Origin: a virus
Direction: 5' to 3' (one strand)
IMG/VR virus record: IMGVR_UViG_3300025168_009255
Coordinates: 1-44,383 of that record
DNA: 44,383 nt
Shown here: positions 1 to 42,677 of the stretch, piece by piece
How positions within the stretch are numbered: position 1 is the stretch's first letter
Layout: every line of letters starts with the position of its first letter
The notes under the pieces: model-generated
The model's input: only the letters and a program-made list of their open reading frames with translations
Databases searched by the model: none
Told to the model about the DNA's origin: nothing
Position numbers and translations under genes: made by a program

Positions 1-332
1 CAGCAGATGTAGAAGCTGGAACTGGTTTAGGTTTTACAAGTAGAATAGCTGGAGGAGCAACGTTTAAAGTTATGGAAGATAATTCATTAACATCTGAAGA
101 TTCAACTCATACTGATCAAGTTAGGTTGGGCTCACAAGGACAAATACAGACTGGTACTTCAGATCGTTGGAGATATGTAACTGCTGATTTATCTGCTGCT
201 GCAGGACAATCAGAAGTATATATATGGTTAACTTATTTTACTGCAATAGGTTGCGGAGCTAATAATTCATCAACACCATTATTTAAACAAGATGTTGCTG
301 TAGATAATTTTCACATAAGAGGAACTAAATAA
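1..332 (+). CDS. C-terminal part of a probable tail/adhesin protein (5' end outside window)
   Basis: The reading frame is open from base 3 to the TAA at 330-332, giving about 109 residues with no start in sight. The first internal ATG (72) is therefore not taken as the true start. The visible part is Ser/Thr/Gly-rich, and it ends in VAVDNFHIRG, a pattern like the last strand of jelly-roll carbohydrate-binding or MAM-type domains. That supports a surface or tail-fibre role but does not prove it. It shares TAATG with the next gene, so they are probably co-transcribed. The family is not recognised from this fragment alone. Confidence 0.6.
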   Translation, partial: ADVEAGTGLGFTSRIAGGATFKVMEDNSLTSEDSTHTDQVRLGSQGQIQTGTSDRWRYVTADLSAAAGQSEVYIWLTYFTAIGCGANNSSTPLFKQDVAVDNFHIRGTK

Positions 333-550
333 TGAAAGGTATACTAAATAGATGTACAGATTGCGAAAATTCTTTTGATGGTAAAATGCTATTAAGAGAA
401 AATGATATTGTAATTATTGATTCAAATAATAATGTAGTTACTATATTACAAGAAAATAAAAATTCAGAAGGTACTTCATTATACGGACCAGAAGAATATG
501 GAACATATGATAAAATTAAATATTGTGATACAAATTACTGGCGTGAATAA
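332..550 (+). CDS. Small hypothetical protein (72 aa)
   Basis: The start overlaps the previous stop by one base (TAATG), and the end overlaps the start of the secreted protein downstream, so it is translationally linked to both. The protein has an N-terminal CTDCENSF segment with a CxxC pair, a middle stretch of alternating hydrophobic residues (DIVIIDSNNNVVTIL) suggesting beta strands, and an acidic/Tyr-rich C-terminus. No signal peptide or membrane segment is visible. I do not recognise the family. Position suggests a virion or tail-associated accessory. Confidence 0.55.
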   Translation: MKGILNRCTDCENSFDGKMLLRENDIVIIDSNNNVVTILQENKNSEGTSLYGPEEYGTYDKIKYCDTNYWRE

Positions 551-2375
551 TTTTACAAAATTTCTATACGCATTTATAATGCTACTTGTTTTTACTCTGT
601 CTACAGCGTTTGCACAATGTCCTAATGGAACATATGTAAACATAGTAATTAATCCTGATCAGTTTCCACAAGAAACATCTTGGGCTGTTATTGGTACTTA
701 TGAAGATACTATTGTTACAGGTGGTCCTTATGACAATATAATAGGGTATCAACCACAAGTAACTCAAGTATGTATACCTAATGGAGATTACTTATTTAAC
801 ATATCTGACCTATATGGTGACGGTGTTGCAGGTAGTCTATGGGGTGGACAAGATGGATCTTACTATGTAATGCATTGTGGAGATACTTTAGTTCAACCAG
901 ACTCTGCTAATTTTGGTTTTAGCGCTTTTCATGGTTTTGTATTAGAAGATTGTGCTCCGCCTCCACCAGTATATGGATGTATGGATAACAGCTTTGTAGA
1001 GTTTTTACCCGTAGCAACTGTTGATACAGGAATGTGTGTAATACCTAAAGTATTTGGGTGTACAGAAGAAGACGCATTTAACTACGAGGAAGAAGCTAAT
1101 ACAGATATACTAACAGATAGCTGTGCACATACATTAGAACTTACAGATTTAGCTGGTAACGGCTGGGCTGGAGCTTACTTACAAGTAGTACAAGGCGATA
1201 ATTTTATAGGTGAGTTTACGTTACAAGATGGTTTTGACACTACGTTCACGTTTGGTCTAAGCACGTCAGAACCTGTAGAGGTTAAGTTTTTTACAACAAA
1301 CCAATCACAGTTTACTTCGGTGCAGTGTGGTTACGCCTTGTATTCAGAAGAGCATACAGCTATTGATGCTCCAGGAGGATTTGCTAATCCGCTTGTGCCT
1401 TTCGTATTTGTTTACGGTATGCCTTACTGTGGCAGTAGTTGCATAGATAAAATATATGGTTGTACAGATTATACAGCTTTAAATTATAACGAGAGTGTTA
1501 ATACAGATGACGAGAGTTGTTACTACGTTGCTGGGTGTACTAATCCAATATACCTGGAATATAACGCAGATGCTGACTTTGATAACGGAACCTGTGAGAC
1601 TCTTGTGATTCTAGGTTGCATGGATGAAGCGGCCTTGAATTATAACCCTGAAGCGAACACAGAAATAGAAGGCTCTTGTGTTGATGTAGTTTTAGGATGT
1701 ATGAGTGAGTTAGCATTTAATTTTAACTCTAACGCTAACGTAGATGACGGATCATGTATAGCGTATACTTATGGTTGTACTGATCCGTTTGCACTAAACT
1801 ATGATACAATTGCTAACACAGATGATGGTAGTTGCATAGAAGTAATTAATGGCTGTACTGATACTACGGCAATAAACTATAATATAATTGCAAACACTAA
1901 TAATGGTTCTTGTATTTATCCATTGTCTGGTTGTACTGACCAGACCGCTGAGAATTATAATATATCAGCTAACGTGCCAGACTCTAGTTGCTATTATTCT
2001 GCTGGTTGTTACTCTGGTGATATATATTTTATTCCTAATGAGTGTTTTGAATGGGTAATAGACGTAGATCAATTTTGTTGTAATAATGAATGGGATAATA
2101 GTTGTGATTATTTATATAACTACTGTTTAGATGGTTGGTCAGGTCCTGTAGATGTACAAAATTTTGAAAGATTAAATATACAAGTATATCCAAATCCTGC
2201 AAAAGAAAGAATATATTTTACTAAATTTGTAAACGTACAAGTGTACAATTCAAGGGGAGCATTAGTTGGTGAGTATAATAATATTAATTCACTTAATTTA
2301 AATTCTGGTATTTATCATTTATTAATAAAATATGATAATATTAGATTGCAAAAAACTATTATTAAGTTAGACTAA
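543..2375 (+). CDS. Secreted Cys-repeat protein with T9SS C-terminal sorting domain
   Basis: I start it at GTG 543 because this gives a clean signal peptide (MNNFTKFLYAF, hydrophobic core, STAFA^QC). An upstream ATG at 498 would add 15 residues before it. Two domains with (Y/A)GDG/(A)GNGW motifs follow (nt about 620-950 and 1130-1430). Then comes a tandem array of 25-27-residue units of the form GCTDxxAxNYNxxANTDDGSC, starting near 1458, 1533, 1614, 1695, 1773, 1851 and 1929, with two degenerate units before the second domain. The last ~70 residues (from about 2170) contain VYPNPAKERIYF, VQVYNSRGALV and LNSGIYHLLI, the layout of a type A T9SS sorting domain (TIGR04183/Por_Secre_tail). Predicted fate: Sec export, then T9SS transport to the outer surface of a Bacteroidetes host. 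Finding it in a phage is unusual. Alternatives are a virion adhesin or a superinfection-exclusion factor. Confidence 0.85.
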   Translation: MNNFTKFLYAFIMLLVFTLSTAFAQCPNGTYVNIVINPDQFPQETSWAVIGTYEDTIVTGGPYDNIIGYQPQVTQVCIPNGDYLFNISDLYGDGVAGSLWGGQDGSYYVMHCGDTLVQPDSANFGFSAFHGFVLEDCAPPPPVYGCMDNSFVEFLPVATVDTGMCVIPKVFGCTEEDAFNYEEEANTDILTDSCAHTLELTDLAGNGWAGAYLQVVQGDNFIGEFTLQDGFDTTFTFGLSTSEPVEVKFFTTNQSQFTSVQCGYALYSEEHTAIDAPGGFANPLVPFVFVYGMPYCGSSCIDKIYGCTDYTALNYNESVNTDDESCYYVAGCTNPIYLEYNADADFDNGTCETLVILGCMDEAALNYNPEANTEIEGSCVDVVLGCMSELAFNFNSNANVDDGSCIAYTYGCTDPFALNYDTIANTDDGSCIEVINGCTDTTAINYNIIANTNNGSCIYPLSGCTDQTAENYNISANVPDSSCYYSAGCYSGDIYFIPNECFEWVIDVDQFCCNNEWDNSCDYLYNYCLDGWSGPVDVQNFERLNIQVYPNPAKERIYFTKFVNVQVYNSRGALVGEYNNINSLNLNSGIYHLLIKYDNIRLQKTIIKLD

Positions 2376-2662
2376 TGCCAAGAGCTGCAAAAAAAATGCC
2401 AAAACGTAATAAGAAGAACTTCAGATCTACAAAGTCTGGAGCTGGAATGACGCGTGCTGGTGTTAAAGCTTACAGAAAAGCTAACCCAGGTAGTAAATTA
2501 AAGACTGCTGTTACAGGTAAAGTTAAAAAAGGTAGCAAAGCTGCTAAAAGAAGAAAGTCTTATTGCTCTCGTAGTTTAGGACAAATGAAAATGCATAACA
2601 TCAGTTGTAGCAAAACTCCTAAAAAAAGAATTTGTGCAGCTAGGCGCAGATGGAAGTGTTAA
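2375..2662 (+). CDS. Small very basic viral protein, KRRKSYCSR type
   Basis: 95 residues, starting on the A of the previous stop (TAATG). It is extremely Lys/Arg-rich, with motifs AGVKAYRKANPGSKLKTAVT and KAAKRRKSYCSR, and ends in RRRWKC. From memory, this AGxxxYxxxNPGSxLxxxVT...RRKSFCAR layout occurs in small proteins of marine phages and large eukaryotic DNA viruses (DUF6321-like; number not verified). Function is unknown. Charge suggests nucleic-acid binding or condensation, and the scattered Cys residues could bind metal or crosslink. It is the first of a run of small basic proteins. Confidence 0.75.
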   Translation: MPRAAKKMPKRNKKNFRSTKSGAGMTRAGVKAYRKANPGSKLKTAVTGKVKKGSKAAKRRKSYCSRSLGQMKMHNISCSKTPKKRICAARRRWKC

Positions 2663-2663
2663 T

Positions 2664-2936
2664 ATGGCTATAAGAAAAACAGCAAAAGGTGCATCTCTTA
2701 AACGTTGGTTTAAAGAAGATTGGAAGGATGAAAAAGGTAATGCTTGTGGTTCTTCTAAAAATAAGAAAACCAAAAAGTGTAGACCTAGCAAACGTGTTTC
2801 ATCAAAAACACCAAGAACTTGGGGATCATTGTCTAAGTCGCAAAAGTCAAAAGCTGTTGCAGAAAAGAAAAAAGTTGGGATGGGCAAAAGAACAAGTGCA
2901 TTAAGAAAAAAAACTGTTAAAAAGAAAAAAAAGTAA
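2664..2936 (+). CDS. Small very basic viral protein, RWFKEDW...CRPSKRVSSKTP type
   Basis: 90 residues from ATG 2664, one base after the previous stop. An in-frame ATG at 2634 lies inside the upstream gene and is less likely. The protein has LKRWFKEDWKDEKGNACGSS followed by KCRPSKRVSSKTPRTW, then a Lys-rich tail. I recall this arrangement from conserved small proteins of phycodnaviruses, other large viruses and marine phages (DUF5872-like; number from memory). Function is unknown. The spaced Cys residues and strong positive charge fit a nucleic-acid-binding or virion-packaged protein. Confidence 0.75.
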   Translation: MAIRKTAKGASLKRWFKEDWKDEKGNACGSSKNKKTKKCRPSKRVSSKTPRTWGSLSKSQKSKAVAEKKKVGMGKRTSALRKKTVKKKKK

Positions 2937-3082
2937 TGGCATTAAAAAAAACTAAAAAGTTTAAAGTTCATATGATGTACAGCAAAGCTGGTAAACAAGT
3001 AAAAGCTGGTACGTACAAAAAACATTTGGAGTTAAAGAAAAAAGGATATAATCACGATAAACGTAGACTTAAAAAGAAATGA
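2936..3082 (+). CDS. Tiny basic protein (48 aa)
   Basis: Begins MALKKTKKFKVHMMYSKAGK and ends RRLKKK. It shares TAATG with the previous gene and ATGA with the next. About one third of the residues are Lys/Arg. The middle (VHMMYSKAGKQVKAGTYKKH) has a patterned, non-random look compared with a simple poly-Lys tail. Too short for the usual ORF cut-off, but the tight coupling and shared composition support it. Probably nucleic-acid associated; no family recognised. Confidence 0.6.
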   Translation: MALKKTKKFKVHMMYSKAGKQVKAGTYKKHLELKKKGYNHDKRRLKKK

Positions 3083-3207
3083 AAAAAGTAAAAGGTAAAC
3101 AAAGTAAAATTGCTAGAGCAGCTAAACCATTTAATAAAATTACTGGAGCTGATTTTAAAGCATTAAAGAAAAAGAAAAATGCCAGCAAGAAAAAAAAGAA
3201 AAAGTAG
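3079..3207 (+). CDS. Tiny basic protein (42 aa)
   Basis: Overlaps the previous stop as ATGA. Starts MKKVKGKQSKIARAAKPFNK, has a short non-basic stretch (ITGADFKAL) and ends in a poly-Lys tail. Its last 29 bases overlap the next gene in a different frame. Support rests on coupling and composition shared with the neighbours; no independent family match is known to me. Confidence 0.5.
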   Translation: MKKVKGKQSKIARAAKPFNKITGADFKALKKKKNASKKKKKK

Positions 3208-3340
3208 TACAAAGAAAAAAGGATCACCTAAAGATGCTTGTTACTATAAGGTTAAAAGAAGCTATAAAGTATTTCCTAGTGCATATGCATCAGGTGCTAT
3301 AGCTAAGTGCAGAAAGAAAAAAGCTCGTGGAAAAAAGTAA
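3179..3340 (+). CDS. Tiny basic viral protein with CYYKVKRSYKVFPSAYASGA motif
   Basis: 53 residues, starting inside the end of the previous gene. After a basic N-terminus comes DACYYKVKRSYKVFPSAYA, then SGAIAKCRKKKARGKK. From memory, the pattern CYxKVKxxYKVxPSAYASGAxxKCR is strikingly conserved in small proteins or C-terminal tails of marine phages and giant viruses, often next to the RWFKExW and RRKSFCAR types, as here. Function is not known. The two Cys residues flank the conserved helix-like segment. Confidence 0.7.
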   Translation: MPARKKRKSSTKKKGSPKDACYYKVKRSYKVFPSAYASGAIAKCRKKKARGKK

Positions 3341-3524
3341 ATATTATTACGAATATAAAAGGAATTTGGATTGTCCAAATCCTGAAGAATGTTGCAGATG
3401 CTGTAAGGCATGCTGCTGTTATTGTCAAGAAAAATGCATAGAACTAAAACAAAAACAAAAACTAAAGCCATTACGCGACCAACTAAAAAAATGTGTTGTT
3501 GCGATAAAAGAATGGCTAGGATGA
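3327..3524 (+). CDS. Small Cys-rich protein (65 aa), possible metal-binding
   Basis: Starts at GTG 3327, overlapping the previous gene by 14 bases; no ATG is available in frame near it. Residues 16-37 hold ten Cys in 22 positions, including CC, CC and CCC clusters, followed by a Lys-rich helix and a final Cys. The density resembles metallothionein-like or zinc-cluster proteins, but I recognise no family. A short basic ORF in another frame overlaps its end. The reading frame is plausible but not certain. Confidence 0.45.
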   Translation: MEKSKYYYEYKRNLDCPNPEECCRCCKACCCYCQEKCIELKQKQKLKPLRDQLKKCVVAIKEWLG

Positions 3525-3670: not shown

Positions 3671-4099
3671 ATGTTAAACAATCTATTAGGAGGTATTCTC
3701 GGTAAGGTTGTAGACAATGCTGAGGGCATATTAGATAAGGTTATAACTACGGACAAAGAGCGTGACGCTGCTAAGTTTGAAATTAAAAAACTTTTATTAG
3801 ATGCAGAGAAAGAAGCTTTTGCTCAAGAAGTAGAAGACAGAAAATCTGCACGTGCAATGTATAAAGATGACGCTATTATACAGAAAATATTAGCAACGTT
3901 ATTTACTGTAGCATATTTTGGTATTAGTTTTGTAATGTTTCAACACTTTGTTAATGGTAGTATTGACATGGGTGAGTTTGAAATAAGTTTTATATCTACA
4001 ATATTTGGTGCTATGAGTGCTAAAGTTAACACTATTATTGACTTCTTTTTTGGAGGAAGTAGCAATAAAAATAACGAAAGCAATGGCAGTAATAACTAA
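3671..4099 (+). CDS. Holin (GTA/3TM holin type)
   Basis: 142 residues. An N-terminal amphipathic segment LLGGILGKVVDNAEGILDKV is followed by a charged coiled region (30-68), membrane segments at about 70-92 (ILATLFTVAYFGISFVMF) and 102-128 (ISFISTIFGAMSAKV...IDFFFGG), and a polar Asn/Ser tail. This order matches the holin family of gene transfer agents and many tailed phages (PF11351-like). It would form lesions in the inner membrane and release the endolysin encoded at 5193. It abuts the preceding stop. Confidence 0.8.
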   Translation: MLNNLLGGILGKVVDNAEGILDKVITTDKERDAAKFEIKKLLLDAEKEAFAQEVEDRKSARAMYKDDAIIQKILATLFTVAYFGISFVMFQHFVNGSIDMGEFEISFISTIFGAMSAKVNTIIDFFFGGSSNKNNESNGSNN

Positions 4100-29853: not shown

Positions 29854-31296
29854 ATGGCAAAATTGACATTTTCAAATTCACAGTACGGTAATGGTACTAC
29901 TCCAGAAAACGCATTAAACAACGCGTTACTGCAGTATCCTGAGATTGCTAGTACTTTGATTCAACAGTTTCCTAGATACACACTAACATTATTATTAGAA
30001 AAAGTTGGTTTGTACGCTTCCGAAAAAGTTTTAGGCGATAACTCTTTTGAGTGGAAGGTTATGGGACGTTATAACAAAAAACAATTTATCGCATCAACTG
30101 GAGATTCTTCACATGCGGCAGGTCAGAAAGTAGCACTTACTTTCTCTGATACTTCTGGTGGAGCTGCAGTTAATTATTACAACTTATATGACTTGCTTCG
30201 TTTCCAAGATGGATCGACTGGTTTGATTGTAAGTGTTACTGGATCTACTTACCAAGTAGAATGCATTGATGCTGGTTCAAACGCAGCTAACGAAGTAGTT
30301 GGTCGTATTGGTTCTGCATTCCCTTACGGATCTAGTGGAGCAGATGTTGGTGAGAACTGGGCATACCCAGAAACTCATAAGAACTTCTTGACTATTATGC
30401 GTAAGAAATGTACAGTAACTGGTAAAGACGCTACTGATGTAACTTGGATTGAGAATAATGGTTCTCGTTTATGGTACTTCACACGTGAGCAGCAGTTAAT
30501 GGATCAGTTTATGTATGAGCAAGAATTACAGAGATGGTACGGAAAGCGTTCTGTTGCATCACCTACTTCTAACTATACTTCTACTAACGCAGACATTTTC
30601 TCTGAAGATGTATCTGATCAGTCTTTAGCTGATGGTTCTGAAGGTAGAGTAATTATAGGAGATGGTCTTTTAGCACAAATCGACTCTTCAAACCAAGCTA
30701 CTTATACTGCTGGTGCACTTACTGAAGACATCATTACTGAGTTCTTAGCTAAGTTATCACTTAACGCTACTAACTCTGAAGGTAATGAGTACTTAGTGTA
30801 CACAGGTACTGAAGGTCGTTTAGCATTCCATAAAGCTATGAAAGATTTACTTATTGCTCCTTCTGGTAGCTTTACAGGTGGATCATTTGCAGGTGTAAAT
30901 GGAGATGTTGAATTAGGTGCTAACTTTACATCTTACATGGCTTTAGGTAACAAAATTACTGTTGCTTACTGTCCAGTATTTGATGATAATCACATGCACG
31001 GATCTACATCTGGAACTAACGCATTTGGTGACTCAAGATTAAAAGAGTCTGCTAAAATGGTATTCTTAGATATGGGAAGCACAAGTGGTGTAAACAACAT
31101 TGAGTTGATCACTAAAGGTGCTGAAGGTATGAATAGAAGCTTTGTTAAGAAATACGTAACAGGTATGGTAAATCCTTATGACGCTAATTCTATGATGGCT
31201 GCTAACGCTGATGACAAGTTCGAGTGTCACGTATTAGCTGAGTCTGGAATCGTTGTAAGAAATCCATTATCTTGCGGAATCTTATCTGTAGCATAA
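29854..31296 (+). CDS. Major capsid protein
   Basis: 480 residues, after the scaffold gene and followed by a terminator-like hairpin and decoration-type genes. Mixed beta sheet sequence with the long helix-like YTLTLLLEKVGLYASEKVLG early and KFECHVLAESGIVVRNPLSC at the end. Codon use stands out: many CGT Arg and TTC Phe codons, while neighbours prefer AGA and TTT. That is the mark of strong translation, as expected of the most abundant virion protein. HK97-type fold is presumed, not shown. Confidence 0.78.
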   Translation: MAKLTFSNSQYGNGTTPENALNNALLQYPEIASTLIQQFPRYTLTLLLEKVGLYASEKVLGDNSFEWKVMGRYNKKQFIASTGDSSHAAGQKVALTFSDTSGGAAVNYYNLYDLLRFQDGSTGLIVSVTGSTYQVECIDAGSNAANEVVGRIGSAFPYGSSGADVGENWAYPETHKNFLTIMRKKCTVTGKDATDVTWIENNGSRLWYFTREQQLMDQFMYEQELQRWYGKRSVASPTSNYTSTNADIFSEDVSDQSLADGSEGRVIIGDGLLAQIDSSNQATYTAGALTEDIITEFLAKLSLNATNSEGNEYLVYTGTEGRLAFHKAMKDLLIAPSGSFTGGSFAGVNGDVELGANFTSYMALGNKITVAYCPVFDDNHMHGSTSGTNAFGDSRLKESAKMVFLDMGSTSGVNNIELITKGAEGMNRSFVKKYVTGMVNPYDANSMMAANADDKFECHVLAESGIVVRNPLSCGILSVA

Positions 31297-35907: not shown

Positions 35908-36903
35908 ATGCACACACCTGTTAATAGAGTATTTAATAATGTTTCTAGAAATCTAGGATTAAATGAATATACAGAACATATAGATACGTGGGCTGAATGG
36001 GCTTTCGAAGCAGAGCAATATATAGGTAGTTTAGATACATTTTTAGAAACAGAAATTACATATCAATTAGATACTCCTGTAGCTGCAACTGCAGAAATAA
36101 AATTTGCAAATAATCCTGTTGAAAAAGATTTTATTGAAATAGGTGGTACAAGATTTTATTTTAGAGATTTAGCGTCTGCAGTAAGTTTAGGAGATCAAGA
36201 CTATATAATACCAGTAGCTGCAACTTTAGATTTAACTATGGCTAATGCTGTAACTAAAGTATCGACATCATTTTTTGAGAATATAAAAGGTGTTAGTCCT
36301 GCATGGGATAGTACTACTAAAATACTTACATTAACATACGGAAGAACTGGAGATGAAGGTAATAATGTAAATTTAAATACTTCTGGAAACGCAGAAATAA
36401 CAAAGTTTTTTACAGGAGGTAAAGAAAGAATACATAATAAGCAGGTAAGACTACCAGACAATATGGTAAAACTTATATCTGTAAGACAAGGAGGAAGCAT
36501 TATATTTCCTACAAGTGCGCAGTTTAAATCTAAAGTTTCTGAGGGTTCAAATAGATACTATGTTAATGGTAATAGATTAAATTTTACTAACATAAGTAAT
36601 ACTGCAGATTTAGTTATAACTTATCTTTCTGTACCAATGTCAGAAGAAGGTTATCCAATGATAAAACAAGGACATGAAGAAGCTATAGCTACATATATTA
36701 TGTGGAAGTTTAAATTGATAGATTACTATTCTGCAAAAGCACCACAATACATTGTTAAAGATTTAGAAAAAAGATGGTATTGGCTATGTGGTCAAGCTAG
36801 AGGTAATGATAATATGCCTAACTCATCAGAGTTGTTAAAAATAGGTAAAGTATTTAATTCTAAAACTAGACCAAGATTATATGATGGTCTTACACAATAC
36901 TAA
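35908..36903 (+). CDS. Tail tube/connector protein with inserted beta domain (331 aa)
   Basis: Outer part: MHTPVNRVFNNVSRNLGLNE, EWAFEAEQYIGSLDTFLETE and C-terminal AIATYIMWKFKLIDYYSAKA, the helix-beta-helix plan of podovirus connector or tail-tube (T7 gp11-like) proteins. Inserted at ~70-155 is a domain with FIEIGGTRFYFRD, ANAVTKVSTSFFENIKGVSP and RTGDEGNNVNL, like the xIxGxxFxF...AxA...G.GN.v.l domains inserted in many phage tail proteins. TAATG into the next gene. Confidence 0.6.
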   Translation: MHTPVNRVFNNVSRNLGLNEYTEHIDTWAEWAFEAEQYIGSLDTFLETEITYQLDTPVAATAEIKFANNPVEKDFIEIGGTRFYFRDLASAVSLGDQDYIIPVAATLDLTMANAVTKVSTSFFENIKGVSPAWDSTTKILTLTYGRTGDEGNNVNLNTSGNAEITKFFTGGKERIHNKQVRLPDNMVKLISVRQGGSIIFPTSAQFKSKVSEGSNRYYVNGNRLNFTNISNTADLVITYLSVPMSEEGYPMIKQGHEEAIATYIMWKFKLIDYYSAKAPQYIVKDLEKRWYWLCGQARGNDNMPNSSELLKIGKVFNSKTRPRLYDGLTQY

Positions 36904-39900
36904 TGGCAAAAAAACAACCTCAAGCAAAAATAAAACAAAGCCAACCTTCTGGTTTTTTTAAAGGTATGGTTTCTGATGTTGATCCTAGATTACAACCTAA
37001 GTCAACATATAGAGACGCGAGAAACATAAAACTTATAAATACAAGTGGTAATTCTCTTACAATAGAAAATGAAGATGGTAATAAATTAGCTGTAGATTTA
37101 GCTGCATTATATCCTAATTATGAATATGACCCAACGGCTATAGAATATTTTAGTGAATCGAAAGACGGTATTACTGATAGTCCTTTAGATTTTGCTGGTA
37201 ATATAGTAGGTCATTATTCATTTAAAAATCAATTACTACTTATTATATGTGGTATATTTAGTGATTCTGTTAACGATAAAGACTTTAGGACACAATTTTT
37301 ATTATTAGAATTTACTCCCAAAGGTAATTTTCGTACATCTACTGATTTACGAGTTTGTTATGATAATGTAGGTGAGGTTCCAAATTTAAAAATGGATCCA
37401 TTAGTAAGTTGTTCTGTAGCTGGTATAGTAGAAAATGAATGCATAACAAGAGTATATTGGACAGACAATATGAACTCTTTAAGGTCTTTTTCTTTAAAAG
37501 CAGATTTACCTAATTTGTTTATTAATGAATTAGACGTAAAACCACAGTCAAGATTTTCTCAACCTATTTTAGATGCACAAATATCAGGCGGATTACTATC
37601 AGGATGTTATTCATATTTTTATAAATATGTTACAGATGAAGGTTCTGTTTCTGGTGTATCTCCATTAAGTAACGTGTATTATGTTTCTGAACACGCAGGT
37701 AGTTACATAGGAACATATGGATCTGCTTCAGGTGTAATTACTGGAACTGGATTACAAATAAAAATAAATGATGTAGATCAAAGATATGATTTTGCAGAAA
37801 TATATGCTGTATATTGGCAAGATTTAGAAATAGCTCCTACAGTTCATGAAGTAGGAACTATACCTATAAGTGGTACAGGAGCGGGAGAAGATATAACATG
37901 CTTTCATTCAGTAACAGGACCTCCAGTATCTAATGGTTTAGCAGAAGTTCTAATACCTTCTAATACTTGGGATGTATGTAAAGATATTGCAATAAAAGAT
38001 AATATATTATTTGCTGCTAATTTAAGAAGTATTACAAATATAGTATCAGATAAAGAATGGAATGTAAAAGTTCGTAGGTCTTCTTTGTTAAATTTTAGTA
38101 ATGCAGATCCAGATTATGGTGTGTTAACTACTATTGATCCTTTAGTAAAAGATTATTATCATGCAGAAGGAACATATGATCCTGATAATGTTATAGAATT
38201 ATTTACAAATGGTTCTTATGAAAAAATGACTTTTAATCATACTTATTTGGCGCATAGAGGTGCACATAGGTATATGCCTTTAATGACAGATGGTCCTGTA
38301 TTGGGAGCAATGTCATATGGATTTAGTGTTTCAGGAACTAGTGGAAACGAGTTAGGTGGATGTAGAGTTTCGTTTAATTTATCAAAAAAATCATCAGATA
38401 CTACAGGTCCTAGAGGTAGAACAACATTAATGTCGTATGGTAGTGGTAGTGGTGGTTATGGAGATTATTACACAGAAGCATATACAGATGTAAATCAAGC
38501 TAATGGTGATGGATTATATAAAGCAGTATTAAGTAATGTAGGTGGCGAAAAAGATCCTGGTGTTGTAGGTAATAATAGGGGGTATCAAAGAGGAGAAACA
38601 TATAGATTTGGTGTATTAGTATATGATAAAGCTGGTAATCCAGGTAATGTATTATATATAGGAGATATACAAATGCCATATCATCACGATACATATTGGC
38701 AAAGAGATTTTGGTAATTATGGTGTAGGTTCTTGGGATACAAGTACAAGAGATGATTTATATAAAATAGATAGTTTCGCAAAAGATTTTAGAGTATCTAT
38801 AGATGCATCTATGCCAATTCCTGGTGTTGCAAATAAATATTGTAAGCCAGATGAAGATATTAATACTGGAAGTTCAAATTATGGGCCTAAAACTAATTTT
38901 TGGTCAACGCCTGGACAATCTCATATTTGGAATTTTGATTTAGGTTTAATCTTTGAATTTAAAATACCAGATCATGTAAGAGAAAAAATATCTGGGTTTC
39001 AAGTAGTAAGAGCACAAAGAAAAGATTCAGACAGAAGTGTATTACAGCAAGGCGTATTAAAACAAACTGTTTATTATGGAAAAACATTAGCTCAAGATGG
39101 ATCTGATCAGTCAACTACAGATGATTCAAGTCATGCCAGTCCTTTTTATAGTATGATACAATTACCATATTCTATTGCTTCAAATCAATCTACAGCATTA
39201 GGAGGTCCTACAGCAGTAACAGGTACTGCAACAGGAACAACAAACGGAGGTAATATGTTTTGGCCTGAATATGATTTATTTGTGGGAGGTCATTTAGGAT
39301 TAAATTATTATACTAATGCTTTGTGGCCTGGAGGTAATGCTCAAAATTATGCTAGTATTGATGATAGTGCTGCATTACAATTACTTGTAATGAAAGATGC
39401 AGATGGTTATTTTTCTCAAGGCGGTAGTGATTATCAAACTAATTCAAGATTTTTTGGACAAGATCAATTTGGAATATATACTAACGGAACTTCAACTTAT
39501 TCTACAAGACACATGTCTTTAACCTGTTGGGTAATGTATTCTCCTGATTCAGCATTTGGATTACGTCCTTATAGATTTACTTCACAAGACCATATAAGCA
39601 TAGTTTCTACAATGAAATTAAGAGATAAAGTAAGAACACAAATTAGTTCTGAAATATTAGGTTTCTACGATTATGGTGGTGTAAGTGGTGCAGTTCGTAC
39701 AGGATATATGATTAATTATGCTACACCAGAAGCTAATATAGATCAAGCATCAGAGTTTTGGCAATATGGTGGTTGGATGGCAACAAATGATAGAGGGGAC
39801 TATTATAGTAGCATTAAAAGACAAGATAATGCAGAAAGAGCTACCGTAGTTTCAGGACAGTGGTCTGTGTATGATACATATTTTCATCATTATATATCAG

Positions 39901-42677
39901 ATTGGGTTACTGGTGGTGATGGTAATAATAGTTATTTTAATGTTGATAAACTTTATGTAACTAGGTCTGACCATAAAACTTTAAATAGTTTTAATATACC
40001 TACAAATTATGGTGTAGATGGTGGTGTTACTCCTTCAGATCAAACTAGTCCTTGGTCACAAGTAATAAATGTAGGTTCTGCAAGCATTCGAAAAATGACA
40101 GCTCAATACTATAATGGTAACTATTTTAGATTAGCTAGTGGTAAACAATTGTATGATGGCGAAATAGTTGATTCATCTTTTTTTGAAACACAAAATAGTG
40201 GAAGTTGGCCTACAGGAGGTAATTCAGGTGGTTTTACTAATCATTCATTAACATTTGCTCATTTATCAGATGGTAGTGCAGCATGGGGTGAAGGACCTGT
40301 TGCACCATATTTAGATGGAGCAAACTTTACTGTAAATCAAAGTGCAAAATCTAGTAATGCTAATACTAATGGTTTAGTAGGCGGATCGGCTTATCGTTTC
40401 ATGGGAGAAAGCAATAGATACTCACAAACATATAGTCAAATAAGTAGAGGAACAAGAGGAATACTTTTAAATATAAGTAAAGCATCAGTCAATCCTCTGT
40501 TTCAGGGTAATTTTAATTATTCAAATAGAGAAACAGAAGATGATCAATTTCAAGGTGCACCTGATTTAGCTAGAGTATTAGTTGATCAAAATTATCATAC
40601 AAGCAATGGTTCGAAAAGCCAAATGGCTAGAAAACATAAAAAAATACCATATTGTGTTTTAGCTAATATAGTAAGAGATAATCCTGCACAATATGGAGGT
40701 AATAGAAAAGATGCTATTGAAAATACAAGGTATATAGCTGCTGGTAATTTTCATCCTATTATAGAAGATAGAGTAGGACATACATCAATAGTTTTTGGAG
40801 GTGATACTTTTGTTACATTGTATTCACATCAAGCTACTACAAGTCCTTATCCAAGATTTTCTAGATCATCATTTGAAATATTTCCTGTAGAGTCATATGT
40901 AAATACTGCACTAAGAAGTGGATTTCATTTAGCTAACAATGATACAGAAGTTGGATTTGATCAACAGTCAGAATACGTAAGTAATGATTGGTTGTATAAT
41001 CCTGTGTATTCACAAGAAAAAAGTTTAAAAAGATTTGTGTCTGTAAGAGAAACAGATTGTGCTTCTTTAGAATTACCATATCAAATATCATACTCTCAAA
41101 CAAAATTAAGAGGTGAACCTTATGATGCTTTTAGAACTTTTCCATATTTAAATTTTCACGATGTTGAAGGTGCTTATGGTGAGATTACAGGTTTAATAAA
41201 TCATAATAATGAAATTTATTTTACACAGGAAAAAGCATTTGGTAAATTATTAATTAATCCTAGAACATTTATTAATGATGCCACTACAAGCACACAGCTA
41301 TTTACGGGTCAAGGTCAAACTTTAGAAACGGAACAATATATATCTAATGTTTATGGGTCAAGACATACAAGAAGTTTAATAAACAGTAATTTAGCTTTAT
41401 ACTTTTTTGATGTAGATAATGAAAAAATTATACAGTTTATAGATAAAAAAGGATTAAGAGTTTTAAGTGATGAAAAAGGTATAAAGTCGAAATTATCAAG
41501 TTATATAAATAAAGGTAGACTAAAAGCTTTTGACAATTATCATGCAGATATTAATGGTAGAGTTAAAAGAAATGATATGCCTTTAAATTTTATTGGTATA
41601 CACGGAACTTTTGATTATAAAACAAGAAGAGTTTTTTATACAATATTAGATGGACTTAGGGTTGATCCCACAGATAGATCAGATTATCCTGATGGAGATG
41701 GAGTTTACACAGGAACTGTTCCTACTTTAGGTATAAATCCTTGGATGCCAACTCATAGTGGTGGATATGCTGATAGATGGAGAATTAACAATACTGTTAT
41801 ATATAATGAAGAATTAGATGTCTTTACATCTTTTTCTGATTTTTGTCCTCCACATTATATAAATCATCAAGGATATATTTATACTACAAAAAATAGATTT
41901 GCTTTTAATATTTGGAATGTTTCTTGTGTAGGCTATCCTGATAGAGTAAATGGTACAAATATTTATTATGTAGGACATCCAGATTACGCTGATGTTAACA
42001 TGACAACAGCTGAAACAGCTGGAGTTTGGAAGTCTAACACAATTAAAATGGGTGCTTTACAATTATGGAAGTATGGAGCAGGTGATATACCAAATTGGTT
42101 TTATGGAGATAGAATGTATACTACAAACACTGGCATAAATAATCCTTCAGAAGAATTACAGTATGATGCTAATGGTAATGATTTAAGAGAAATAAATTCA
42201 AGTTCAAAAATAATACAAACTTCTATTTTAGATTTTGCAATTAATGATTTTTCTACTGTAAATAAAAAGTTTGATAATTTAAAAATTTACGTTACATCTA
42301 AGAAACTAGAAACAGTTGATTTAGGAAACGTATATCACTATCAAAATAGAGTAAGCGTTGATGGTATTGTTGAACAAGATGATTCAAGTTCTTTTGGATC
42401 TTTATTTTATAAAGCTACTTTTACTACAGACAATTCCAAATTAGGTGTTTATGCTTTTGAAACAAGAACAGGTAATAATCATAAATATAGAGAAGGAATA
42501 TTAAGATTTCCATTAAGAACTAACATTCCAGACATAACCAATAGTACTGACACTTTATATGAGTTTGAAAAGTCTAGAATGACAGGAACTTTTCTTACAA
42601 CAAAACTATATTCGGCTATGGAAGAAAAATTTAATATCTTTGCAATAAGCTCAAAATTTAGAAAATCATATAATTAA
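36903..42677 (+). CDS. Giant tail protein, stabilisation/muzzle type (1924 aa)
   Basis: N-terminus GFFKGMVSDVDPRLQPKSTY, RDARNIKLINTSG and TIENEDGNK, then long Gly/Ser/Tyr/Asn-rich beta sequence without coiled coils, ending EEKFNIFAISSKFRKSYN. The opening GGMxxDxDPxLQPxxTYRDAxNIxL...TIENExGN is shared by very large tail proteins of Bacteroidetes podophages; crAss-like relatives are called stabilisation or muzzle proteins (from memory). It probably closes the lower tail tube. No other gene intrudes in 5.8 kb. Confidence 0.7.
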   Translation: MAKKQPQAKIKQSQPSGFFKGMVSDVDPRLQPKSTYRDARNIKLINTSGNSLTIENEDGNKLAVDLAALYPNYEYDPTAIEYFSESKDGITDSPLDFAGNIVGHYSFKNQLLLIICGIFSDSVNDKDFRTQFLLLEFTPKGNFRTSTDLRVCYDNVGEVPNLKMDPLVSCSVAGIVENECITRVYWTDNMNSLRSFSLKADLPNLFINELDVKPQSRFSQPILDAQISGGLLSGCYSYFYKYVTDEGSVSGVSPLSNVYYVSEHAGSYIGTYGSASGVITGTGLQIKINDVDQRYDFAEIYAVYWQDLEIAPTVHEVGTIPISGTGAGEDITCFHSVTGPPVSNGLAEVLIPSNTWDVCKDIAIKDNILFAANLRSITNIVSDKEWNVKVRRSSLLNFSNADPDYGVLTTIDPLVKDYYHAEGTYDPDNVIELFTNGSYEKMTFNHTYLAHRGAHRYMPLMTDGPVLGAMSYGFSVSGTSGNELGGCRVSFNLSKKSSDTTGPRGRTTLMSYGSGSGGYGDYYTEAYTDVNQANGDGLYKAVLSNVGGEKDPGVVGNNRGYQRGETYRFGVLVYDKAGNPGNVLYIGDIQMPYHHDTYWQRDFGNYGVGSWDTSTRDDLYKIDSFAKDFRVSIDASMPIPGVANKYCKPDEDINTGSSNYGPKTNFWSTPGQSHIWNFDLGLIFEFKIPDHVREKISGFQVVRAQRKDSDRSVLQQGVLKQTVYYGKTLAQDGSDQSTTDDSSHASPFYSMIQLPYSIASNQSTALGGPTAVTGTATGTTNGGNMFWPEYDLFVGGHLGLNYYTNALWPGGNAQNYASIDDSAALQLLVMKDADGYFSQGGSDYQTNSRFFGQDQFGIYTNGTSTYSTRHMSLTCWVMYSPDSAFGLRPYRFTSQDHISIVSTMKLRDKVRTQISSEILGFYDYGGVSGAVRTGYMINYATPEANIDQASEFWQYGGWMATNDRGDYYSSIKRQDNAERATVVSGQWSVYDTYFHHYISDWVTGGDGNNSYFNVDKLYVTRSDHKTLNSFNIPTNYGVDGGVTPSDQTSPWSQVINVGSASIRKMTAQYYNGNYFRLASGKQLYDGEIVDSSFFETQNSGSWPTGGNSGGFTNHSLTFAHLSDGSAAWGEGPVAPYLDGANFTVNQSAKSSNANTNGLVGGSAYRFMGESNRYSQTYSQISRGTRGILLNISKASVNPLFQGNFNYSNRETEDDQFQGAPDLARVLVDQNYHTSNGSKSQMARKHKKIPYCVLANIVRDNPAQYGGNRKDAIENTRYIAAGNFHPIIEDRVGHTSIVFGGDTFVTLYSHQATTSPYPRFSRSSFEIFPVESYVNTALRSGFHLANNDTEVGFDQQSEYVSNDWLYNPVYSQEKSLKRFVSVRETDCASLELPYQISYSQTKLRGEPYDAFRTFPYLNFHDVEGAYGEITGLINHNNEIYFTQEKAFGKLLINPRTFINDATTSTQLFTGQGQTLETEQYISNVYGSRHTRSLINSNLALYFFDVDNEKIIQFIDKKGLRVLSDEKGIKSKLSSYINKGRLKAFDNYHADINGRVKRNDMPLNFIGIHGTFDYKTRRVFYTILDGLRVDPTDRSDYPDGDGVYTGTVPTLGINPWMPTHSGGYADRWRINNTVIYNEELDVFTSFSDFCPPHYINHQGYIYTTKNRFAFNIWNVSCVGYPDRVNGTNIYYVGHPDYADVNMTTAETAGVWKSNTIKMGALQLWKYGAGDIPNWFYGDRMYTTNTGINNPSEELQYDANGNDLREINSSSKIIQTSILDFAINDFSTVNKKFDNLKIYVTSKKLETVDLGNVYHYQNRVSVDGIVEQDDSSSFGSLFYKATFTTDNSKLGVYAFETRTGNNHKYREGILRFPLRTNIPDITNSTDTLYEFEKSRMTGTFLTTKLYSAMEEKFNIFAISSKFRKSYN

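Follow-up and report, generated by a model that had tools for sequence, protein, structure and literature searches.

A marine crAss-like phage appears to encode a large cysteine-rich protein that is exported through the type IX secretion system (T9SS) of its bacterial host and that belongs to a conserved cassette of cell-envelope genes. We put the probability of this joint reading, which leaves the role of the protein aside, at roughly 75%. It is based on comparisons of the protein, its relatives and its gene neighbours, together with structural models. The window, by which we mean the whole stretch of 44,383 nucleotides that was analysed, is a linear fragment of an IMG/VR record. By its gene content it is a crAss-like phage, with crAss-type markers for the capsid (PF23898), muzzle (PF25731), ring (PF24228), portal (PF16510/phrog_6547) and terminase (phrog_6681). 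The major capsid protein (29854..31296, + strand) matched its profile with 117.7 bits and the muzzle protein (36903..42677, + strand) with 438.8 bits.

The gene of the exported protein (hereafter the cargo, or c2) shares the + strand with the structural genes and stands ahead of DUF5675 genes and of a holin-like gene in the downstream late region (c7, 3671..4099, + strand; weak PHROG holin and Pfam 3TM-holin matches). For this reason we count it among the late genes, which argues against a role early in infection. According to the gene-order comparison, it follows the end of a tail-fibre-like gene, inside which the contig begins (c75, 72..332, + strand). Between them lies a small gene of 72 aa, also present in the ORF list, that overlaps the start of the cargo gene (c76, 332..550, + strand). 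Small Lys/Arg-rich proteins (DUF6321, DUF5872) are encoded directly after the cargo, at 2375-3380, and related clusters occur in many sibling contigs.

The cargo gene (543..2375, + strand) is uninterrupted from a GTG at 543 to the stop codon at 2373-2375 and encodes 610 aa. An alternative in-frame ATG is present at 498. The GTG is the better start since homologues (MNNFTKFLYAF...) have their initiating ATG at precisely this place. The putative Sec signal peptide, called by inspection and conserved in relatives, covers residues 1-24 (543..614, + strand; MNNFTKFLYAFIMLLVFTLSTAFA) and is followed by QC. It has a hydrophobic core and ends in ...STAFA, with Ala at both -3 and -1 and predicted cleavage before Q25, which places Gln at +1.

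The mature part, all on the + strand, begins with a beta domain (residues 25-141, 615..965, including YGDGVAGSLWGGQDGSYY) that was modelled with a pLDDT of ~70-80 over much of its length and resembles a domain of secreted Flavobacteriales proteins (L123/L124). Two blocks of GCxD...C repeats then flank a middle domain that is conserved in alignment A1 (residues 196-304, 1128..1454, starting with ELTDLAGNGWAG). The first block has two repeats (residues 145-195, 975..1127) and the second has seven (residues 306-483, 1458..1991), giving nine units of ~26 aa that start at residues 145, 172, 306, 331, 358, 385, 411, 437 and 463. A Cys-rich segment, likewise conserved in alignment A1 (residues 488-536, 2004..2150), precedes the T9SS type A C-terminal sorting domain (residues 548-610, 2184..2372), which reads VYPNPA...GIYHLLI...KTIIKLD. 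The whole protein contains 31 Cys and has a pI of 4.05. The AF2 model of this whole chain is poor, with a mean pLDDT of 45.4; nothing can be read from it about the repeats, and the body of the cargo offers no function based on fold.

The sorting domain is the best-modelled part of the protein (pLDDT 73-90). Against TIGR04183 (cut-off 23) it scored 27.3 bits, or 31.2 bits when the genome was searched, and against PF18962 (cut-off 27) it reached 30.5 bits. Foldseek relates it to solved CTDs of T9SS cargo (8glk_D, 7pq4, 5ag8 and 5hfs). The match to 8glk_D, a T9SS complex with NucA substrate, had a TMt of 0.69 and a probability of 1.00 at 2.5 Å. A probability of 1.00 was also obtained for 7pq4, which like 5ag8 is RgpB. 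As modelled, the domain has the Ig-like beta-sandwich fold of T9SS cargo. In other cargo, T9SS function depends on a glycine between strands 3 and 4 as well as on the extreme C-terminus (PMC11285876); Gly572, invariant in alignment A1, presumably stands at the position of this functional glycine (Lbeta3beta4).

Both terminal signals had been claimed in an earlier note on this DNA, and both claims hold. The Sec signal peptide is borne out, on inspection, by its A-x-A motif, its hydrophobic core and a Gln at +1 that the family conserves, and the sorting domain by scores above both cut-offs, by its fold and by its retention among relatives. In NCBIfam, TIGR04183 was the only model matched at E<=10; TIGR04131, also named in that note, gave no match, and a type B sorting domain was rejected on that ground. 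The note had also proposed a search of other phage genomes. Of two IMG/VR scans, the first yielded 35 relatives and the second at least 118; signal peptide and sorting signal recur together in the members examined.

TIGR04183 matches each of the 22 family members in the alignment. Among 33 family contigs, 31 exceed the cut-off of this model, each at a single site, and the other two are a sub-threshold match and a truncated contig. A second set of 14 family contigs comprised seven that pass the cut-off, one sub-threshold match and six without a match, five of which carry a short tail in place of the sorting domain. Gln was found at +1 in every full-length relative examined, in line with the Q-rule of Bacteroidetes, by which Gln follows the signal peptide (PMC5837995). 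No relative of the window protein was found among INPHARED phages, where a long repeat-rich relative used as query returned only repeat matches, mostly in cyanophage structural proteins. TIGR04183 cargo was absent from eight cultured Bacteroidota phages (crAss001, crAss002, phi14:2, phi38:1, phi10:1, phi46:3, phi3:1 and FCL-2), so that no laboratory system is at hand yet. Three uncultured phages of 634-642 kb (LR745206, LR756502 and LR756504; loci L180-L182) have ORFs with TIGR04183 domains above the cut-off.

The five members with a short tail (L069, L094, L097, L098 and L113) end in 'TDxLGRP...KNxLLFxYxDGTxxKKFIK'. No NCBIfam model matched this tail at E<=10 in the three of the five members tested. 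Six of seven Flavobacteriales genomes contain 12-26 copies of this tail each, and the seventh has a single copy (hosts G043-G047, G168 and G410). The tail stands at the extreme C-terminus in 14 of the 19 host loci inspected, mostly in proteins with a signal peptide and Gln at +1. Since homologous phage proteins carry it where others have the type A domain, we regard it as a candidate sorting signal, one that is common in marine Flavobacteriales and goes unrecognised by the library models searched.

Comparison of family members indicates that signal peptides and sorting domains are swapped among near-identical bodies, with one of each always kept. In 225 pairs of members the bodies are at least 75% identical while the sorting domains are less than 45% identical; in 95 pairs, bodies at least 80% identical are joined to signal peptides less than 45% identical. 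At 60% identity, 15 types of sorting domain can be told apart, and these types cross the clusters formed by the bodies. One such event can be located in the window DNA. Against L038, identity is 72-88% up to about position 1480 and 94-100% from there on, across the sorting domain and into the gene that follows, which marks a sharp and, by this comparison, recent recombination junction at 1481, inside the second repeat block.

The exchanged domain is itself under purifying selection, as judged by omega, which has a median of 0.20 and a maximum of 0.45 in 140 pairs of sorting domains (limited to pairs at least 60% identical, as different sorting-domain types are not comparable). In 121 of these 140 pairs dS is lower in the sorting domain than in the body, the pattern that recent exchange should leave. 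Sorting domains can be incompatible across species (PMC11285876), and on one reading the phages may therefore swap tails to suit the T9SS of their host. By trading signal peptides and sorting tails, these phages have in effect run a natural experiment on which signals a T9SS will take.

The second part of the main reading concerns the neighbours of the cargo. Over 79 loci the gene order is c4 (~346 aa), c5 (~92 aa), c3 (~114 aa) and then the cargo; c4 was present in 70 of these loci, c5 in 64 and c3 in 71. A search that started from c4 gave at least 592 relatives of that gene. Of 78 loci found in this way, 71 had c3 close to c4 and 68 had c5 there; in 55 a neighbouring ORF had a recognisable sorting domain or short tail at its end, and several of the remaining loci are cut by contig ends. 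Thus, by gene order, the cargo is well supported as the last member of a conserved four-gene cell-envelope cassette in hundreds of phage contigs.

As modelled, c4 is an outer-membrane beta-barrel of ~12 strands (pLDDT 74.7), whose best PDB matches are the NanC/KdgM porins. No relatives of it were found among INPHARED phages. Its assignment as PorV or PorP/SprF is unsupported, as no PorP/SprF match was obtained in Pfam at E<=10 and the fold matches are porins. On inspection, c5 has one predicted TM segment followed by a coiled coil. In c3, a signal peptide with Gln precedes a C-terminal half that is thioredoxin-like and has a cis-Pro, for which Pfam thioredoxin matches stay below cut-off. It has no CxxC: both cysteine positions are invariant Asn (NxxN) in 36 sequences (e.g. 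L038:1645-1965, alignment A3). This exported NxxN thioredoxin-like protein stands beside a cargo with 31 cysteines. A homologue of the CxxC-less protein in a bacterial contig (L168, G255:C183, 110-475) adjoins a 1064-aa exported protein.

The window contig itself has no c3-c5, as its sequence starts within c75. Its sibling, contig L169, shows the genes in the order c4-c5-c3-219 aa-c75-c76-c2, from which we infer that c4-c5-c3 lie upstream of the window start. The idea that this phage has no cassette is unsupported, as the contig begins in a gene that is downstream of the cassette in L169. A different arrangement, c2-c4-c5-c3 followed by an endolysin, was found in a contig binned in a Flavobacteriales genome (G168:C32; L166/L172), which is apparently a myovirus, given its T4-type tail tube and gp32-like SSB. 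A few contigs, such as G410:C16, have c4-c5-c3 with no recognised cargo.

The GCxD repeats had been taken in the earlier note as a further mark of T9SS export, and this did not stand. Virion structural proteins of cyanophages have such repeats too, as does a second long protein encoded in the structural region of the present phages (30 loci, e.g. L048:147-4418). Virion and exported proteins may share one repeat module. Apart from the repeats, the reading of the protein as phage-encoded cargo of the host T9SS is upheld, with signals that are present, consistent in fold, conserved, under purifying selection and swapped without loss.

A repeat-only scan of bacterial genomes returned mainly marine Flavobacteriales and a few other genomes. 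Some Flavobacteriales proteins (L121, L123) combine a signal peptide, a similar N-terminal domain, the repeats and a T9SS domain, and the marine Flavobacteriales genomes with repeats hold dozens of T9SS cargo. From repeats, architecture and cargo content taken together, the window phage probably infects a bacterium of the marine Flavobacteriales. The proposed tie to T9SS-bearing Bacteroidetes thus agrees with both the crAss-like phage type and the nearest bacterial counterparts.

In the mechanism that we propose, the cargo would be made late during infection of a marine Flavobacteriales cell, leave the cytoplasm by Sec and be trimmed before Gln25. It would then cross the outer membrane through the host T9SS by the PorV route, which serves type A domains and leaves cargo statically anchored or released (PMC12618676), and would end up either anchored at the surface or set free. 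The outer-membrane barrel c4, the inner-membrane c5 with its periplasmic coiled coil and the periplasmic c3 would remodel the envelope of the infected cell jointly with the cargo, and c3 may help to fold the disulphide-rich protein. A T9SS-dependent surface is relevant to infection, as T9SS/gliding mutants of Cellulophaga are phage resistant (PMC13288928).

If the receptor were masked or occupied in this way, superinfection would be prevented and released progeny would not be lost on the cell or on debris. Receptor masking or superinfection exclusion is, tentatively, the most likely role of the cargo, although we hold it at odds clearly short of even. We favour it because of the tail-fibre neighbours, the outer-membrane partner and the precedent of T5, in which the gene for Llp adjoins that for pb5 (PMC9586334).

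Other roles fit parts of the same evidence. The cargo might be an adhesin that fastens infected cells to particles, algae or other cells and thereby brings about the release of progeny near new hosts; this would change the behaviour of the cell without blocking phages. Its acidic, Cys-rich repeats and N-terminal domain do match those of secreted marine Flavobacteriales proteins, Laminin-G-like genes adjoin the cargo gene in several contigs, and type A cargo can be surface-anchored (PMC12618676). However, family searches recognised no carbohydrate-binding family in the cargo, and the periplasmic and inner-membrane partners have no obvious place in simple adhesion; we consider this role rather unlikely. 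A device for egress or lysis seems a similarly long shot. Here c5, c3 and c4 would span the envelope in a spanin-like manner, while the cargo weakens or sheds the surface late in infection. The holin-like c7 and DUF5675 genes after the cassette in crAss-like phages, the endolysin after it in the unrelated G168 contig and the layout of c5 (one predicted TM, then a coiled coil) all point that way, but the matches of c5 to spanin and holin families are far below significance and c4 is a porin-like barrel. We know of no described lysis system that includes a T9SS-exported surface protein.

The cassette could also be a display system of the phage, with c4 as a dedicated anchor or shuttle for the cargo in the manner of PorP/SprF for type B cargo, c3 and c5 as periplasmic helpers and tails traded to match the host T9SS. 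We offer this as a quite speculative proposal; if it were true, the short tail 'TDxLGR...YxDGTxxKK' would be an unmodelled sorting signal used by host and phage alike. The idea of a captured host adhesin, raised in the earlier note, understates the case, as the protein belongs to an old phage family in a conserved four-gene cassette rather than to a one-off capture. For a host-derived passenger of generic benefit (nutrient capture, a matrix protein) and no phage-specific role speak the Flavobacteriales T9SS proteins that share its signal peptide, N-terminal domain, repeats and sorting domain (L121, L123). Nevertheless, the patterns used on genome contigs revealed no bacterial locus with a close relative of the whole protein, hits in seven bacterial genomes were mostly to the repeats, and in hundreds of contigs the gene keeps its place in one cassette, all of which makes a passenger very unlikely. 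Because GCxD repeats are found in virion proteins, including the second large repeat protein of these phages, and the cargo gene adjoins tail-fibre genes, we also considered a tail decoration or fibre whose signal-like ends are incidental or serve assembly. Such a virion component is scarcely probable: every member keeps a cleavable signal peptide with Gln at +1 and a sorting tail despite the exchange of both, and a signal peptide is missing from the second repeat protein as examined in L048.

Superinfection exclusion, one form of the role that we favour, has been suggested before for phage cargo. The view of the earlier note that no well-described phage uses the T9SS to display its own protein is outdated, as such cases were published in 2019-2020 (PMC6949934, PMC7468147). 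Cryophages have genes with type A sorting domains that vary among phage variants, and superinfection exclusion was suggested for them; in the parts of that report available to us the cargo are an endoglucanase, a GH39 protein and a PA14 protein, and no conserved cassette of barrel, coiled-coil and thioredoxin-like proteins is described (PMC7468147). Cluster 2 gut crAss-like contigs likewise have a T9SS sorting domain in genes near the head/structural region, but with BACON domains, in contrast to the GCxD repeats, four-gene cassette and marine Flavobacteriales-linked phages found here (PMC6949934). Proteins of Porphyromonas gingivalis phages share Bacteroidetes-type signal peptides that expose Gln, with no T9SS domain mentioned there (PMC10367356).

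Type A cargo of Flavobacteriales (TIGR04183, PF18962) have the same signal peptide, Gln at +1 and C-terminal Ig-like sorting domain, whereas the present cargo is phage-encoded and its signals are swapped among phage variants. Type B cargo with a linked PorP/SprF shuttle resemble it in the linkage of a cargo gene to an outer-membrane barrel gene (PMC12618676); here the domain is type A, and c4 matches porins in fold and not PorP/SprF. T5 Llp and related exclusion lipoproteins are also exported phage proteins encoded beside receptor-binding genes, yet Llp is a small periplasmic lipoprotein (PMC9586334), while here a large T9SS cargo comes with three partner genes and exclusion is only inferred. 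As far as the literature shows, what is new is the conserved cassette, the scale on which it occurs, the trading of export signals and the second kind of tail.

Phage-encoded T9SS cargo, previously noted only in passing, emerges here as a conserved family under selection within a multi-gene envelope cassette. The conservation of such a set of envelope proteins across contigs suggests that these phages probably rebuild the surface of infected cells. Hundreds of marine phage contigs carry the cassette, an apparent myovirus among them, and this would make surface takeover by phages of Bacteroidota a general and testable strategy.
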